A stretch of 64,000 bases of DNA from Citrus sinensis (Eukaryota; Streptophyta; Magnoliopsida; Sapindales; Rutaceae). The notes under the pieces are model-generated. The model ran no database searches and had not been told where the DNA came from. It saw nothing but the letters and a program-made list of their open reading frames with translations. This document shows positions 17,868 to 58,263 of this stretch, one piece after another. The translations under genes and the position numbers were made by a program. Location of the stretch: NCBI RefSeq assembly GCF_022201045.2, contig NC_068561.1:23008501-23072500 (forward strand), written 5' to 3'. How positions within the stretch are numbered: the stretch's first letter is position 1; every line of letters starts with the position of its first letter.

Positions 17868-18800
17868 CTAATTTCGACGAGAAACAACAATATTAGCCAT
17901 ATGACACGAAGGTGCGGCCCTTGTAGAACCAAAGTAAGCAAGCTCTTGGTTTGCTTCAGCCACCAAATCCATTGCATACGTCTTTGCACCATCCATACCC
18001 ACAACATTCACATATGTTGCCTTATCATCGCGAGAATCCTTCTCCATATCCGAAGTATCATCCCACACTTGATAAGCCAGCCCGACGCATTTTCCATACT
18101 TGTATAGCCTCTCAGTCTCTTCTTCATTCCCCGCTTCAAATAAAGCTCCACCTTCATCCGATTTCTCTAGGATCTTGCCACATTTCTTCCCGTGAATCGA
18201 CTCCACTTCGCTCAAACTAACTTCTTTAACCTTGCTGTTAATTCCCATGATCTGCCCTGCCGGACATCCTCCTGAGCCAGCTCACAAGCATATGTCTGCA
18301 ATGACTCGAAGAAAGGTGGCCTGGTGAAACGCTTTTGGTCCTGGTTGCAATAAGGTCAATGGCAAAGAAGAGCAAATCTTGACAAGCAAGAACTGAGGTA
18401 GGCTTGCCTCGTCGAGAATCAACGTTGTCCAACCAAGGGAGGTCATCCAGAGAATCAGCCGTCGTGATGAGTATCTCCATTGCACAAGCCAGTGGCATCA
18501 CCGTAGAATCATTGCCTCGTTTGATTTTTTTTTTTTTATTTATTTGGCTTTCGTGGCCCTGTATTTTATCAATTTGAAACTCAGCAGCCAAAGGGCAAGG
18601 CTGCTGGCTTTTAACTTGACCGTCAGGTTTTCTGCTATGAATAGTTGCTGATCTAGTAATGATGATTTTGGAACAAGGGATGCCTTTTCGGCCTAATGGG
18701 ATTTCTGAGTGGGATTGTTGTAGAGCAGCAATATTGATGAAGTTGGTTATCAGAGTTGAGCCAGTTGAGCCATATTTTGAAATAGATAGATATATAGCGT
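17868..18800 (-). pseudogene. GGPP synthase-like pseudogene, frameshifted and deleted
   Basis: The downstream frame (17868-18248) encodes a recognisable C-terminal half: KEVSLSEVESIH, YKYGKCVGLAYQVWDDTSD, and an end like NQELAYFGSTRAAP. The upstream frame (18238-18804) encodes PLACAMEIL and DDLPWLDNVDSRRGK, and an N-terminal segment resembling copy E of the cluster. The two halves are in different frames around 18240, and the region between the N-terminal FQIDK segment and PLACAM lacks the GGKR and CxxxC block, replaced by simple sequence. The closest relative in the window is copy E at 56.3 kb (shared IPLACA-type, YGKCVGL and EANQELAYF stretches). It cannot make an intact prenyltransferase. 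Confidence 0.85.
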
Positions 18801-36548: not shown

Positions 36549-36927
36549 TTTTGTTTCGGTGAAAAATTAGAAAACACCGAAAACCCCTGGCTTTTGAAGA
36601 TGGAGTGGCGTTGTGCTAAGCTATGCAGTGCAGGGTTTAACGTTTCAGTGGCATAGAATGGATGTGTAGAGTGCGGACTCAAGTGAAACAAAGTGGATGA
36701 TGAAATAATTTCTTATGGAACGAGAAGATAGAGCCCAATACATTCGTGGGCTCAGGAAAGGCCCATCGGTGTGGCCCGTTTCTAAAATTCTTACAGGTAA
36801 ATTTCTTTGGAGGCCTAAAACTATTTCTAATTATTGATAAGCAAATGATGTTTTGAAACTATACTTAACAGTCCAAAATATTAAGTATGTTCTTTGATCC
36901 GTCATCCATGATGTGTACAGCAGAATC
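36549..36927. promoter_or_regulatory. shared divergent promoter (valyl-tRNA synthetase / PPR)
   Basis: Only 379 bp separate the two start codons, which face away from each other. The spacer holds site II-type elements: AGGCCCAT (36759-36766), GTGGCCCG just after it, and an inverted pair GAGCCCA (36731-36737) / TGGGCTC (36747-36753). GGCCCA/TGGGCC elements are known in promoters of plant housekeeping and organelle-biogenesis genes, which fits both products. No TATA box stands out. Confidence 0.6.
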
Positions 36928-38589
36928 ATGCTTCCACTCCGTCAAAGAATTCAATTTATCATCTCTAAATCATTCTGCAAATCCAGCCACTTACTGTTGC
37001 CCAAATTCATTCATAGTACCAGAAAGCCAAAGAGTAACTCACTGGTGACAGCCATTTGTGATTGTTTTAGAAGAGGCTGGAACTGGGACACACTCAGTAA
37101 GCAATTCAATTCCATTCATTTAAACGATTCTCTCGTTGAGAATGTATTGCTAGAACTGAAAGAACCTGTCGATGCAAAACGCGCTTTGGGGTTCTTCCAT
37201 TGGTCGGCTCATCATAAATCCTATCAACACAATCTTTGTTCTTACAGTGTCACTATTCACATATTAGTTCAAGCAAGACTGCTTGTTGATGCCCGTGCTT
37301 TAATCGAATCAGTTTTGGAAAAACATATTGGAGATGATTCGAGATTCTCAGTCGTGGATTCACTGCTTGATACTTATAATGTTGCGGATTCAATTCCGCT
37401 TGTGTTTGATTTGTTGGTACAGACTTATTCTAAAATGAGATTGTTTGAGGTTGCTTTTGATGTTTGTTGCTACTTAGAACAACGTGGGTTCTCTTTAAGT
37501 TTAATAAGTTTCAATACTTTGATTCATGTTGTGACAAAATCTGATAGGAATGATCTAGTGTGGCGAATTTATCAGCATATGTTAGAAAATATAAGATACC
37601 CAAATGAAGCGACAATTAGAACTTTGATTAGTGCTTTATGCAAAGGAGGGCAGTTGCAAACTTATGTGGATATGTTGGATAGGATTCATGGGAAAAGATG
37701 TTCTCCTATGGTGATTGTTAATACGAGTTTGATTTTAAGGATTATACAAGAGGAAAGAATTGAAGAGGGTATGGTGTTATTGAAGAGAATGTTACGAAAG
37801 AATATGATTCATGATACCATTGCTTACTCATTAATTGTTTATGCTAAAGTGAAAATGGGGAACTTGGAGTCAGCGTTGGTGGTGTATGAAGAAATGCTCA
37901 AGAGAGGATTTAGTGCAAATTCTTTTGTTTATACTACATTTATAGGAGCCTATTGTGAGTATGGAAAAATTGAAGAAGCAAATTGTTTGATGCAAGAAAT
38001 GGAAAATGCGGGTTTGAAGCCTTATGATGAAACCTTTAACCTGCTTATTGAGGGCTGTGCAAAAGCAAAAAGGATAGAAGAAAGTTTAAGTTACTGTGAG
38101 CAAATGATGAGCAGAAAACTTCTTCCTAGTTGTTCAGCCTTCAATGAGATGATAAGAAGGTTATGCGAGTGTGGGAATGCGAAGCAAGCCAATGGGATGC
38201 TAACTCTGGCATTAGATAAAGGGTTTTCACCTAATGAGATCACATACTCTCATCTCATAGGTGGGTATGCAAAGGAAGGTGAGATTCAAGAAGTTTTGAA
38301 GCTCTATTATGAGATGGAGTACAAGTCAATCTCTCCGACACTGCCAGCTTACACATCTTTGATTAGTAGCCTTTGCCAATGTGGAAAACTAGAGGAAGCA
38401 GATAAGTATTTTAAAATCATGAAAAGTCACTCATTAGTTCCAGGTGTAGATATTTACGAGTCATTAGTCGGTATCCACCTTGAAAAGGGTAATAAAGCAA
38501 AAGCCCTTCACCTTTGTGAAGAGATGGTTTCTGAAGGATTGAAACCTAGCACTTCATACCTCTGCAGTGCTAGTACCTGTAGAGGCTAG
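36928..38589 (+). CDS. P-class pentatricopeptide repeat protein, probably mitochondrial
   Basis: An intronless 553-aa protein. The frame is open from a GTG at 36913, but the first ATG in frame is 36928, giving MLPLRQRIQFIISKSF, a basic amphipathic presequence. From about residue 90 onward there are tandem 35-residue PPR units; the last six are cleanly spaced, for example FVYTTFIGAYCEYGKIEEAN, TFNLLIEGCAKAKRIEES, ITYSHLIGGYAKEGEIQEV, AYTSLISSLCQCGKLEEAD and IYESLVGIHLEKGNKAKAL. There is no E, DYW or SMR domain, so it is P class, a family that binds organellar RNA for stability, splicing or translation. The RNA target is unknown. It resembles the At1g66345 type from memory (unverified). Confidence 0.93.
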   Translation: MLPLRQRIQFIISKSFCKSSHLLLPKFIHSTRKPKSNSLVTAICDCFRRGWNWDTLSKQFNSIHLNDSLVENVLLELKEPVDAKRALGFFHWSAHHKSYQHNLCSYSVTIHILVQARLLVDARALIESVLEKHIGDDSRFSVVDSLLDTYNVADSIPLVFDLLVQTYSKMRLFEVAFDVCCYLEQRGFSLSLISFNTLIHVVTKSDRNDLVWRIYQHMLENIRYPNEATIRTLISALCKGGQLQTYVDMLDRIHGKRCSPMVIVNTSLILRIIQEERIEEGMVLLKRMLRKNMIHDTIAYSLIVYAKVKMGNLESALVVYEEMLKRGFSANSFVYTTFIGAYCEYGKIEEANCLMQEMENAGLKPYDETFNLLIEGCAKAKRIEESLSYCEQMMSRKLLPSCSAFNEMIRRLCECGNAKQANGMLTLALDKGFSPNEITYSHLIGGYAKEGEIQEVLKLYYEMEYKSISPTLPAYTSLISSLCQCGKLEEADKYFKIMKSHSLVPGVDIYESLVGIHLEKGNKAKALHLCEEMVSEGLKPSTSYLCSASTCRG

Positions 38590-40083: not shown

Positions 40084-41202
<1,119 letters not shown>

Positions 41203-42630: not shown

Positions 42631-42694
42631 ACTAAACAGAAACTAGCCAGCCACTCTCATCAACAGATTATTAAGTTTACCAAAACCATTCTCA

Positions 42695-42895
42695 ATGGAT
42701 GTTATCTCTGCAACCATTCATAGCTACGGCAATTCAGTCCTCCACAGAAATCCAATCAATTATTTTAAAAACGAACGTGAGATCCCATTTCCTCACTTGA
42801 ATCTTTCCCCCATAGAAAATAAAGTCAGTTATGCTGCACACTCAGGCCTCAGCTTTGGTGCCAACATTCCAGGACGAAGAAATCATTAAGCCTGC
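42695..42895 (+). pseudogene. GGPP synthase 5' fragment (copy B)
   Basis: Encodes only the transit-peptide region: [20 protein letters not shown] aligns with the copy A N-terminus ([17 protein letters not shown]). Relative to A there is a 7-nt insertion (the CTCAGGCCTCAGCT context) that shifts frame; the alternative frame continues the match as far as GACGAAGAAATCATTAAG, then similarity stops near 42892. No catalytic domain remains. The promoter with TATA box is retained, so it may still be transcribed. Confidence 0.85.
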
Positions 42896-45330
<2,435 letters not shown>

Positions 45331-48214: not shown

Positions 48215-49495
<1,281 letters not shown>

Positions 49496-54599: not shown

Positions 54600-55881
54600 C
54601 CATATATGATTATGTATAAAGTCTGAGAGTTTGCTCATTCGATTCTTTTACAGTTCCTTAATAACATTGTGCCTTGTATTCTCACCAATTAGCTAGTGAA
54701 ATCTATCATCTCTTCTCTCTTCATAGTGGATATATATGGGCTAGTTGGAAGCCGAACCAATATAATATTTTTTTGTTGCTTCTTTGATTCCTGTTACTTC
54801 TTTGAGTTTGAGCTTGACAAATTAGATTCTGATTTTCAAGGTTTAAGCTTAAGTTTGGATCTTGGGGTGACTTGAAGTCAACATCTTGCTGGATCAAGCA
54901 CAACAGATATATTATGATTTGATTTTTTTATTTTTTTTTATAAGATTGGAAATTTACTGAAGGTGTGAATTCATACATTTGTAGCATAAAAACTGATGAA
55001 GAATCCTAAAGTGACAATATGGTGGGAAAAATAATCTTAAAATAGTGTAGTGCTGTAGTGTTAATTGAAAAATAATAATATTAATTTTTTAATTAACACT
55101 GTAACGCCATATAGTTTTTACAATTGCTTTATGGCCGTTGTATTAAATTCTTCTTCTTTCAAATATCAATACTCTTGCAGCAAACCTCAAAAATACTTTC
55201 ACAATTATTGGGAGATTATCTACTTCATACAAGGAAAATTACCATTAGGGGCTTGAAGTCATGCCCTCCGTTGGGCTAATGGATTTAATTATATATATAT
55301 ATATATATATAATTGAGGAACCGGATTGCCTCTTGTTATTTATTTATTGGGAAAATTACAGATTTTTCCCTCAAATATAAATTAGAAAAACTTACAATTC
55401 CCTTCAAATCTAAAAATGCTATAATTAATGCCTTTTCACTAACAATTTAAGTTATTTTATACTAAAAAGTCTATATGCCCCTAATCAATTTAAGTTATTT
55501 TTAAAAATCATAAAAATAAAATATTATGTATGCATTATGACTATTATATTTTATAAGTTGAGTTAATTAACTAATTTAAGAATTTTTTATTTTCTAGACT
55601 TAAAACCTAAAACAATAGGACAATGTAGTATTTGAAGGTTCAGTGAAGCTTGCTTTATATGCTAGCAATGACAAAATCAATTGTCTTATGTGAGAAATAA
55701 AATTAATATACAATCCATCACGTGATGAAAATTGAATGAATGAAATTGTCTTATTATGAAAAAAAAAATTTTTAAAGAAAATCCAATATACAAATAGTTT
55801 ATATTTGTATCAAAATTTTAAATTAAAAAATATAAATTAAGTAATCAACTTATCTTATCAAGGATAATATTATCATATCAC

Positions 55882-55923
<42 letters not shown>

Positions 55924-56328
55924 ATGGATTTTTATTGTTTGTAAATTAAGTTAAATTGATTTGCAGCAATATGAACTTTTTATTATAAAAGAACTTAAAT
56001 TGTTAGCATAAGGTAAGTTTTATGAATTTAAAAGGATGAATATCACAATGTATTTTCTATTCTATTTATATTTGGCGAATCCATAATTTTCTCTTTATTT
56101 ATTTTGCTGTCTCTTTAGTCTATTTTTGACTCGTGTGCGAAAAGTCTTAAAAATACAGCGGATCCGGTGCATAAAAAAATTAACAAACAAATGTCGATCA
56201 ATTGAATTGTGATGTGCATTATCTGCCAGTAATAAAAAAAAAAAATTGTTCACTCTGAAGAAGCATTGTCGCCGAGAAGAATTAATCAACATAAACAACA
56301 GCCTGTTTCACTAACTATCATTTCAATT
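54600..56328. other. AT-rich spacer before GGPPS copy E
   Basis: (AT)n microsatellites at about 55290-55312 and 55884-55921. No gene seen. The last ~60 bp form the likely leader of copy E. Confidence 0.5.
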
Positions 56329-57252
56329 ATGGCTTCAGCTCTGATGACCAGCTCTATGAATACTCCTCTCCATCACCACTCAAAAACCCCATTAGGCCAA
56401 CCTAAAGTTGCCCCCAACCCCAAGGCGTCCCATGTTCCAAAATCATCATCGTTGGATCAGGCCGAAAACCTCACGATCAAGTCAAACAACAACAACCCTT
56501 ACCCTGAATTCCAGATTGATGAATACATGAAATTGAAGGCAAAGAAAATCAACAAGGCACTATTTGAAGAAGCAGCAGTTCCATTAATATTGCAATACCC
56601 AACTCTCCCCAATCATGAAGGGGAACGTGTTCATGGAACTCTATGCATTGCTTCATGTGAGTTGGTGGGAGGAAATGAGTCTTCAGTGATACCACTGGCT
56701 TGTGCTGCAGAGATGCTCATGACTCTGGCTCTTAGCCGTGCTCTTCTTTGTTATGCCGTTGAGCATATGGCAACGAAGACCAAAAATGTTTCCCCTGACC
56801 GCCTTGTTAGAGCCATCGGTGAGATAAGCTCAGCAGTAGGCACAAGAGGAGTCTTGGCAGGGGGGATCATGGAAATTAATAGTAAGGGCAAAGACGTGAG
56901 TTTGAGCGAATTGGATTTCATTCAGAGGCACAAATGCGGAAAGCTTATTGAGGCATCGGTTGTTTGTGGAGTTTTAATTGGTGGGGGTAGTGAAGAAGAC
57001 ATTGAGAAGCTAAGGAAGTATGGGAAATGTGTAGGGTTAGTGTATCAAGTGTGGGATAATATTTTAGATAATATGAAGAAGGAAGCTGGTGACGATAAGG
57101 TAACATATCCAAAGTTGATGGGTGTGGATGGGGCAAAGAGGTATGCCAAGGAGCTGGTGGCTGAAGCAAATCAAGAGCTTGCTTACTTTGATCCTACGAG
57201 GGCTGCCCCTTTGTATCATTTGGCTGATTTTTTGGTTTCTCGACACAAGTAA
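56329..57252 (+). CDS. GGPP synthase-like protein lacking catalytic motifs (copy E)
   Basis: An intact 307-aa intronless ORF. MASALMTSSMNT is chosen as start; the frame is open to 56266, but that extension does not resemble the family. The fold core and C-terminus are clearly GGPPS ([47 protein letters not shown]). Losses: the block containing [10 protein letters not shown] is missing before LCIASC; an in-frame deletion of about 34 codons at residues 136/137 removes the first Asp-rich motif; the SARM reads DNILD (243-247); and GQxxD reads GGIME. CxxxC is kept (106-110), a motif reported for GGPPS small/large subunit pairing. It should be inactive as a synthase; it is a regulatory subunit candidate or a young pseudogene. 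Related to the 18-kb pseudogene. Confidence 0.75.
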   Translation: MASALMTSSMNTPLHHHSKTPLGQPKVAPNPKASHVPKSSSLDQAENLTIKSNNNNPYPEFQIDEYMKLKAKKINKALFEEAAVPLILQYPTLPNHEGERVHGTLCIASCELVGGNESSVIPLACAAEMLMTLALSRALLCYAVEHMATKTKNVSPDRLVRAIGEISSAVGTRGVLAGGIMEINSKGKDVSLSELDFIQRHKCGKLIEASVVCGVLIGGGSEEDIEKLRKYGKCVGLVYQVWDNILDNMKKEAGDDKVTYPKLMGVDGAKRYAKELVAEANQELAYFDPTRAAPLYHLADFLVSRHK

Positions 57253-57696
57253 ATAGATAATTTTCACTCTTACTTTTGTTTATTTTGCTGGAATGTTAAT
57301 TGAAAGATGTAAATTAGGTTATGGAGTCGTGAGAATAATAATAACCCGCGAAATATTCCACCGTTTTGAAGCACAAACAGACTCTGGAGGAAACGGCTTC
57401 ATTTAATTTAAATGCAGAGTGTTTTTTTTTTTTTTTGTGTGATGAAGTGAATTTAGCTTGTTGAACAAATTATTGTATAAAAACTAATGTGACGTGATGA
57501 ATAAATTCCATAGGTCAAATAACTACTAACCAACAATTATAGTGTCCATTGGTTTCTAAAAAGAGATTATAAGCCCTGCTTTTTTATGATCAAACTTTTC
57601 AATTTGCTTTCAACTGTAAGTCCGTAATACTTCATTAGTTTGAATCTTAGATTGATGAACATACTTGCAAGGTAAATTTCATTCTGGTATGTTTTA

Positions 57697-57890
57697 GATG
57701 CATCTGGAGCTACAGAGGAGTTGGGGACGTAAGCTGGCAGAAATTTGATGTGAGATAAGGCAACCTATCAGAAGTTGATGGGTATCGATGAGTCCAAAAA
57801 TATGCAAAGGAGCTGGTGCCTCGAGCCAACAAACAGCTTGCCTACATTGATTCTACTAGGGCTGCTCCATTATATAACACCTGGCTAACT
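57697..57890 (+). pseudogene. GGPP synthase 3' fragment (copy F)
   Basis: A C-terminal remnant: TEELG, then TAA in place of the K of GKTAGK, AGRNLM then TGA, DKATYQKLMGIDES, a frame change, YAKELVPRANKQLAYIDSTRAAPLY. It lies about 445 bp downstream of copy E in the same orientation and starts abruptly at a DAS segment equivalent to the DVT after the SARM. Two stops and at least one frameshift make it non-functional. Confidence 0.85.
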
Positions 57891-58263
57891 TCATATATAT
57901 ATGATAATGAAAAATCCATGCTTCGTCGTTTAGAATGGAAGCCAATTAGCCAAAATAAAACACCCCCATGAAGAGGGACTCACGAGATACATTTCAAGAA
58001 TATGAAAACAGCTTGTAGAGAATGCAATGCTACATAATATTTGATTAAACTGAGATTGACATGAGTGATTTTTACCGTTTGGTGATGTATCCCATCTTCG
58101 AGAGAGGATTTTATTTGATTTCAAGACTAGGATACATGCAAGGAAGTTAATATACAAGATCTCATAGAATTTTACCACTTAACCTCAGAAAGGGAAGTTG
58201 ACAGGATATATATTATACCCAAAGAGTTCATAGGGAAAGAAAAGGAGCAATGACAAAAAGCTA
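57891..58263. other. spacer 3' of dehydroascorbate reductase
   Basis: Probable 3'UTR of the minus-strand DHAR gene. No other feature seen. Confidence 0.4.

Follow-up and report, generated by a model that had tools for sequence, protein, structure and literature searches.

The window, a stretch of 64,000 nucleotides of the Citrus sinensis genome (C6:23008501-23072500, contig NC_068561.1), carries a cluster of genes and gene remnants related to geranylgeranyl diphosphate synthase (GGPPS). GGPP synthases supply terpene, carotenoid and chlorophyll synthesis, and the small subunits of plant GGPPS help determine which route the precursor takes, the C20 one (chlorophyll and carotenoids) or the C10 one (monoterpenes). 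The member of the cluster considered here, copy E, keeps an open frame in spite of the loss of its catalytic motifs. We tentatively prefer, at a little below an even chance, the view that it is a catalytically dead, probably plastid-targeted protein of the GGPPS fold, a non-catalytic partner protein that selection maintained through the greater part of its existence as a separate gene.

Copy E and its altered motifs

The features of copy E are the following, FARM and SARM being the first and second Asp-rich motifs, and A to D the other GGPPS-like copies of the window.

56329..57252, plus strand: copy E, an intronless open reading frame (ORF) of 307 codons, encoding a GGPPS-like protein with a non-functional active site
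56329..56454, plus strand: N-terminal 42 residues; composition of 8 Ser, 3 Thr, 6 Pro, no Asp/Glu
56560..56634, plus strand: stretch leading up to and including the GGKR motif, reshaped by insertions and deletions (indels) whose lengths sum to the frame
56620-56634, plus strand: GGKR position, GERVH (GGKRVR in A, B and D)
56644..56658, plus strand: CIASC, residues 106-110, the sole CxxxC of the protein
56733..56735, plus strand: junction of a 96-nt in-frame deletion, placed within a base or two, private to copy E
56860..56874, plus strand: GQxxD position, GGIME
56929..56937, plus strand: HKT position, HKC, with the Thr to Cys change common to copy C
57055..57069, plus strand: SARM position, DNILD (DDILD in the aligned copies), with QVW just before it
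57070..57099, plus strand: loop after the SARM, about 10 codons shorter than in A, B and D and largely common to copy C

The frame ran from the ATG at 56329 to the stop at 57250-57252 with no internal stop, in agreement with the earlier note on this DNA, which had also correctly reported the kept CxxxC and the DNILD and GGIME variants. The protein belongs to the trans-prenyltransferase family, with a score of 56.2 bits for the Pfam polyprenyl_synt profile (PF00348, curated cut-off 27), although copies A, B and D score much higher (190-203 bits). The relatives of solved structure that matched it best were the mint large subunit (LSU, 200 bits), the Sinapis GGPPS (196) and Arabidopsis GGPPS11 (193). 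Weaker matches were obtained with the mint small subunit (SSU, 58 bits) and with the rice GGPPS-recruiting protein (SSU-II, 80 bits), the chain compared being the partner of GGPPS1 in structure 5xn6. The first 42 residues resemble a plastid transit peptide, by composition alone.

An active GGPPS has a FARM of the form DDxxxxD and a SARM of the form DDxxD. In copy E the FARM is deleted, and the SARM was lost by a single Asp to Asn change. Judged from its sequence, copy E has no working active site. The in-frame deletion of the FARM had been noted before with a size of about 34 codons; it measured 96 nt, a single uninterrupted gap of 32 codons relative to the relatives, and 34 residues of copy A correspond to just two, S-R, in copy E. 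Along with the FARM, the deletion removed the RRGKP that follows it and the first residues of the next helix. The GGKR loop, thought to be missing, is present in an altered form, with Lys changed to Glu, the first Arg retained and the second Arg changed to His. The indels preceding it are possibly a compensated -13/+1 pair; the protein and DNA alignments disagree on this region, one reading being a compensated frameshift and the other in-frame indels alone. Two changes had escaped the earlier note: the Thr to Cys change at the HKT position, and the loss of about 10 codons behind the SARM, which correspond to 10 residues of copy A. The W of QVW is common to copy E, copy C and a cluster of relatives on contig C5 described below. 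An erosion limited to the catalytic positions of copy E was rejected (Fisher 0.51) on an alignment with four of the five structure sequences, Sinapis being dropped as its chain is without the loop behind the SARM.

Structure prediction was made with copy A as a control. In the copy A model, helices 132-153 and 176-197 flank the FARM segment, and by alignment the deletion takes approximately three residues off the end of the first helix, the entire loop, and approximately seven off the start of the second. The flanking helices become 117-132 and 137-150 in the copy E model, with a short turn between them, a prediction compatible with a shortened hairpin. In the mechanism that we propose, the deletion would trim two neighbouring helices and remove the loop between them, and the remaining all-helical body would still fold. 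Copy E would then form a pair in the plastid with one of the intact GGPPS proteins, be it A, B, D or the canonical GGPPS on contig C7, as a non-catalytic partner, since the CxxxC segment and the helices beyond the active-site cap are kept. By analogy with small subunits, such pairing could alter the activity, product length or location of the partner.

Relatives of copy E in the window and in the genome

The other GGPPS-like sequences of the window are listed below.

17871..18763, minus strand: copy C, broken sister of copy E; frame interrupted by stops and a frameshift, GGKR region hit by a deletion
40108..41202, plus strand: copy A, intact GGPPS of large-subunit type, possible partner of copy E
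44266..45330, plus strand: copy B, intact GGPPS of large-subunit type; start taken from the alignment with A and D (44092 in the ORF list)
48215..49318, minus strand: copy D, intact GGPPS of large-subunit type, possible partner; start placed by alignment, the listed ORF beginning at 49441
57691..57911, plus strand: decayed C-terminal GGPPS-like fragment just downstream of copy E and most like it (60.5% over 38 residues)
42647-42850: remnant of a further GGPPS-like copy, matching A, B and D over approximately their first 50 residues

Copy C has in common with copy E the short loop behind the SARM, QVW and HKC. It was placed as the sister of copy E with an ultrafast bootstrap (UFBoot) of 96% on 690 codon-alignment columns, and this tree gained 8.2 units of log-likelihood over the one in which E is nearer to the C5 cluster. 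On a second alignment (631 columns), in which a copy at C6:22.905 Mb was included, the grouping received 81%. Copy C retains a FARM (DDLPWLD) and a SARM (DDTSD) with both first Asp, and therefore copy E lost its FARM and its second SARM Asp after the two copies had split.

The genome (299.7 Mb, 11 contigs) was searched with copies D and E, locus counts being lower bounds. Besides the canonical GGPPS on C7, an SSU-I was found on C9 (two CxxxC, FARM and SARM absent) and an SSU-II on C8 (FARM present, two CxxxC, SARM DDILE), the latter in two separate frames presumably divided by an intron. The cluster on C5 (7773500-7936000, loci L029-L033) holds fragments and at least four intact ORFs, which are 349-355 codons long. 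All six C5 copies found that span the SARM read NDIVD at this site, and all five that span the FARM keep its DDxxxxD. The intact ORFs have a single CxxxC and show GGKRFMS, GGKRLMS or GGKYFLS where GGKRVRP is expected. Over the core, the identity of copy E was highest with the C5 ORFs (60-63%), followed by A, B and D (54-58%), the C7 copy (47%), SSU-II (34%) and SSU-I (28%). Protein trees set copy E and the four C5 ORFs (C5a-d) apart from every other sequence (UFBoot 100%) and joined SSU-I to SSU-II (UFBoot 100%). The earlier description of copy E as a GGPPS paralogue was right, its nearest relatives being copy C and the C5 cluster; by trees and motifs it forms with them a side lineage within the GGPPS family and is not simply a degenerate A or D. 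The SARM changes of C5 (NDIVD) and E (DNILD) hit different Asp residues and thus have an independent origin. For a separately evolved non-catalytic class, the C5 cluster is a stronger candidate than copy E.

One further copy, at C6:22904000-22907500 (L034), approximately 100 kb from the window, is broken, with four TGA and four TAA in one matched stretch. It retains the 96-nt FARM segment with the first FARM Asp altered, and clusters with the C5 copies (UFBoot 83%). On C5, the loci L030 (7868500-7872000) and L032 (7931000-7936000) have a near-identical segment, a 131-codon plus-strand frame together with a GGPPS-like C-terminal part, which suggests a recent segmental duplication within part of the cluster.

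At the GQxxD position, copies A (GEIMD, 40780-40794) and B (GEFVD, 44908-44922) read GExxD, a sequence change that may affect their activity; GQ is retained in copy D, the C7 copy and the four C5 ORFs. Upstream of copy E, an inverted repeat of about 80 bp (arms 55439-55517 and 55928-56006, 82.5% identical) ends approximately 320 bp before the ATG and has an (AT)18 run between its arms, at 55886-55921. It could be a small transposable element. Adjoining the GGPPS cluster is an open frame of 558 codons with pentatricopeptide (PPR) repeats and, as listed, a GTG start (36913-38589).

Selection on copy E

The Ka/Ks check suggested in the earlier note was made among paralogues of one genome, under a codon model with a separate ratio of nonsynonymous to synonymous rates (dN/dS) for each branch. 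The fits with the C5 and C7 sequences excluded E codons 1-60 and 81-95 and the columns gapped in E, and comprised neither a 208-codon piece from C5, nor the L033 copy, nor the one at C6:22.905 Mb. Over 230 codons (209 with copy C), dN/dS was 0.14 for A, B, D and C7, 0.35 for C5, 0.35 for E and 0.88 for C. A value of 1 on the E branch was rejected (twice the log-likelihood difference, 2dlnL, 7.38, p 0.007), and equality of E and C5 was not rejected (2dlnL 0.00, the estimates being equal). Copy C fitted neutrality, C = 1 being unrejected (2dlnL 0.22). Fits with five sequences gave 0.25 (210 codons) and 0.29 (236 codons) for E, with E = 1 rejected at 2dlnL 8.42 and 6.68, E no different from A, B and D (0.57 and 0.37), and E = C narrowly unrejected (3.38 and 3.76). 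The estimate was 0.32 without the 11 motif codons (2dlnL 8.22) and 0.42 under the other topology (6.40). Over the three fits and two robustness variants the E branch thus ranged from 0.25 to 0.42, and dN/dS = 1 was rejected in each.

Neutral drift was simulated from the sequence of copy E itself (3000 runs with each of two base compositions, substitutions only and no indels). Over the fitted E branch of 0.225 substitutions per site, a mean of 6.8-7.9 stops arose and the frame stayed free of stops with a probability of 0.0007-0.001; the number observed was 0. Neutrality of copy E ever since its split from copy C was rejected on both the dN/dS and the stop-codon simulation. Since no stop was observed against simulated drift and dN/dS was below 1, copy E was under selection as a protein during the greater part of its history after the split from C, and the last third of its branch may have been neutral.

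This leaves room for a second reading, nearly as likely as the first, in which copy E would be a pseudogene of very recent date: the gene, belonging to the E/C5 branch, stayed under selection until not long ago, lost its FARM and several motif residues, and is now drifting with a frame still open merely because little time has elapsed. A neutral phase covering as much as roughly a third of the E branch fits the data, the core has a deletion of 32 residues next to a region scrambled by indels, and the losses are evenly distributed over motif and other conserved sites. Several observations weigh against our preferred reading. The motif sites of copy E were not eroded preferentially (5/12 against 27/88 other conserved sites). 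Drift for 0.075 substitutions per site, about a third of the branch, leaves the frame open with a probability of 0.04-0.06 (0.13-0.15 for 0.05), and the losses private to E, all on one branch, may have come at any point along it. The interval of dN/dS from an interpolated profile is about 0.18-0.71, with an upper bound of about 0.71, and constraint is weaker on copy E than on A, B, D and C7, equality to 0.14 being rejected (2dlnL 5.92, p 0.015). The copies of the E/C5 branch found on the contig of E, namely copy C, the one at C6:22.905 Mb and the downstream fragment, are all broken. The AlphaFold confidence (pLDDT) for copy E was 61.6 in one of five models and 38-42 in the other four, compared to 54-63 in all five for copy A, and the alignment behind the copy E prediction brings with it the fold of A, B and D. 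Finally, copy E has a single CxxxC. What speaks against a young pseudogene is that the dN/dS point estimate equals that of the intact C5 ORFs with no visible neutral share, and that the length changes sum to the frame with no stop. Both the selection test and the side branch with a changed SARM speak for the earlier suggestion that copy E is a regulatory subunit of independent origin; it is possible, and near even with the young pseudogene. Motif loss and protein constraint are supported; the role as a regulatory subunit is putative, and copy E has neither the second CxxxC of the two small subunits of this genome nor a grouping with them.

The constraint also invites a different protein role that needs neither the FARM nor pairing with GGPPS, for instance binding of a prenyl diphosphate or of a pathway enzyme. 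Copy E is constrained as a protein despite having no working active site, and in the alignment with the structure sequences it retains the SARM Asp 243 and Asp 247, Gln 240 and three motif Lys. The regional dN/dS from N to C terminus (0.40, 0.53, 0.24 and 0.24, branch lengths fixed) follows a pattern like that of the sister cluster; we consider such a role improbable. Still less probable is a role as RNA only, copy E being an expressed pseudogene that influences its paralogues. Its precedent is Arabidopsis GGPPS5, an expressed pseudogene truncated by a frameshift, for which an RNA-type influence on paralogues is suggested in the excerpt consulted of PMC4034038; against it, the selection seen in copy E acts on codons (dN/dS below 1), a signal not expected of a role as RNA.

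If the partner-protein reading holds, the branch would represent a second origin of small-subunit-like proteins from an intact GGPPS. One genome would then present possible stages of the change, from the intact enzyme through copies with a FARM and a changed SARM and FARM-less ones to dead ones, and the path from enzyme to regulatory pseudoenzyme would become testable. Even if copy E is a young pseudogene, the uniform SARM change of the intact C5 cluster needs explaining. It is conceivable, but unlikely, that the E/C5 branch evolved on its own into a third line of non-catalytic GGPPS partners with only the shared first CxxxC, in which SSU-II-like and SSU-I-like states were repeated.

Comparison with known GGPPS types

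In the excerpt of Coman et al. (2014, PMC4034038), SSU-I proteins have lost both Asp-rich motifs and carry two CxxxC, and SSU-II proteins have an intact FARM, a changed SARM and two CxxxC. An excerpt of PMC9863795 describes the two classes alike, yet reports a SARM detected in tobacco SSU-II. Among the titles and abstracts of the top literature matches, neither such a Citrus branch nor a third small-subunit class was described.

Copy E resembles SSU-I, represented by the C9 copy, in being GGPPS-related and without a working FARM and SARM, the loss by which the first excerpt defines this class, and in keeping the first CxxxC. It differs in having no second CxxxC, where the C9 and C8 small subunits have two each, in a core identity of 28%, and in branching with the C5 cluster. 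The likeness to SSU-II, represented by the rice GGPPS-recruiting protein and the C8 copy, lies in the C5 relatives of E, in which the FARM is present and the SARM changed; copy E itself has no FARM, one CxxxC, a single open frame and 34% identity to the C8 copy. In the protein trees it did not group with the small subunits, and orthology of copy E with SSU-I or SSU-II is rejected by the tree, the identities and the CxxxC count. By analogy, it may act like a small subunit, yet it is a member of neither class.

The large subunits (Arabidopsis GGPPS11, mint LSU and Sinapis GGPPS) are the nearest class of solved sequences and have the same predicted overall fold as copy E. They differ from it in their FARM, their unaltered GGKR, GQxxD and SARM, and a longer loop behind the SARM. 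Arabidopsis GGPPS5 is, like copy E, a damaged GGPPS paralogue within a recent expansion. The frame of GGPPS5, according to the excerpt on it, was truncated by a frameshift, whereas copy E has neither a broken frame nor a lost start and runs through 307 open codons from its ATG with dN/dS below 1.
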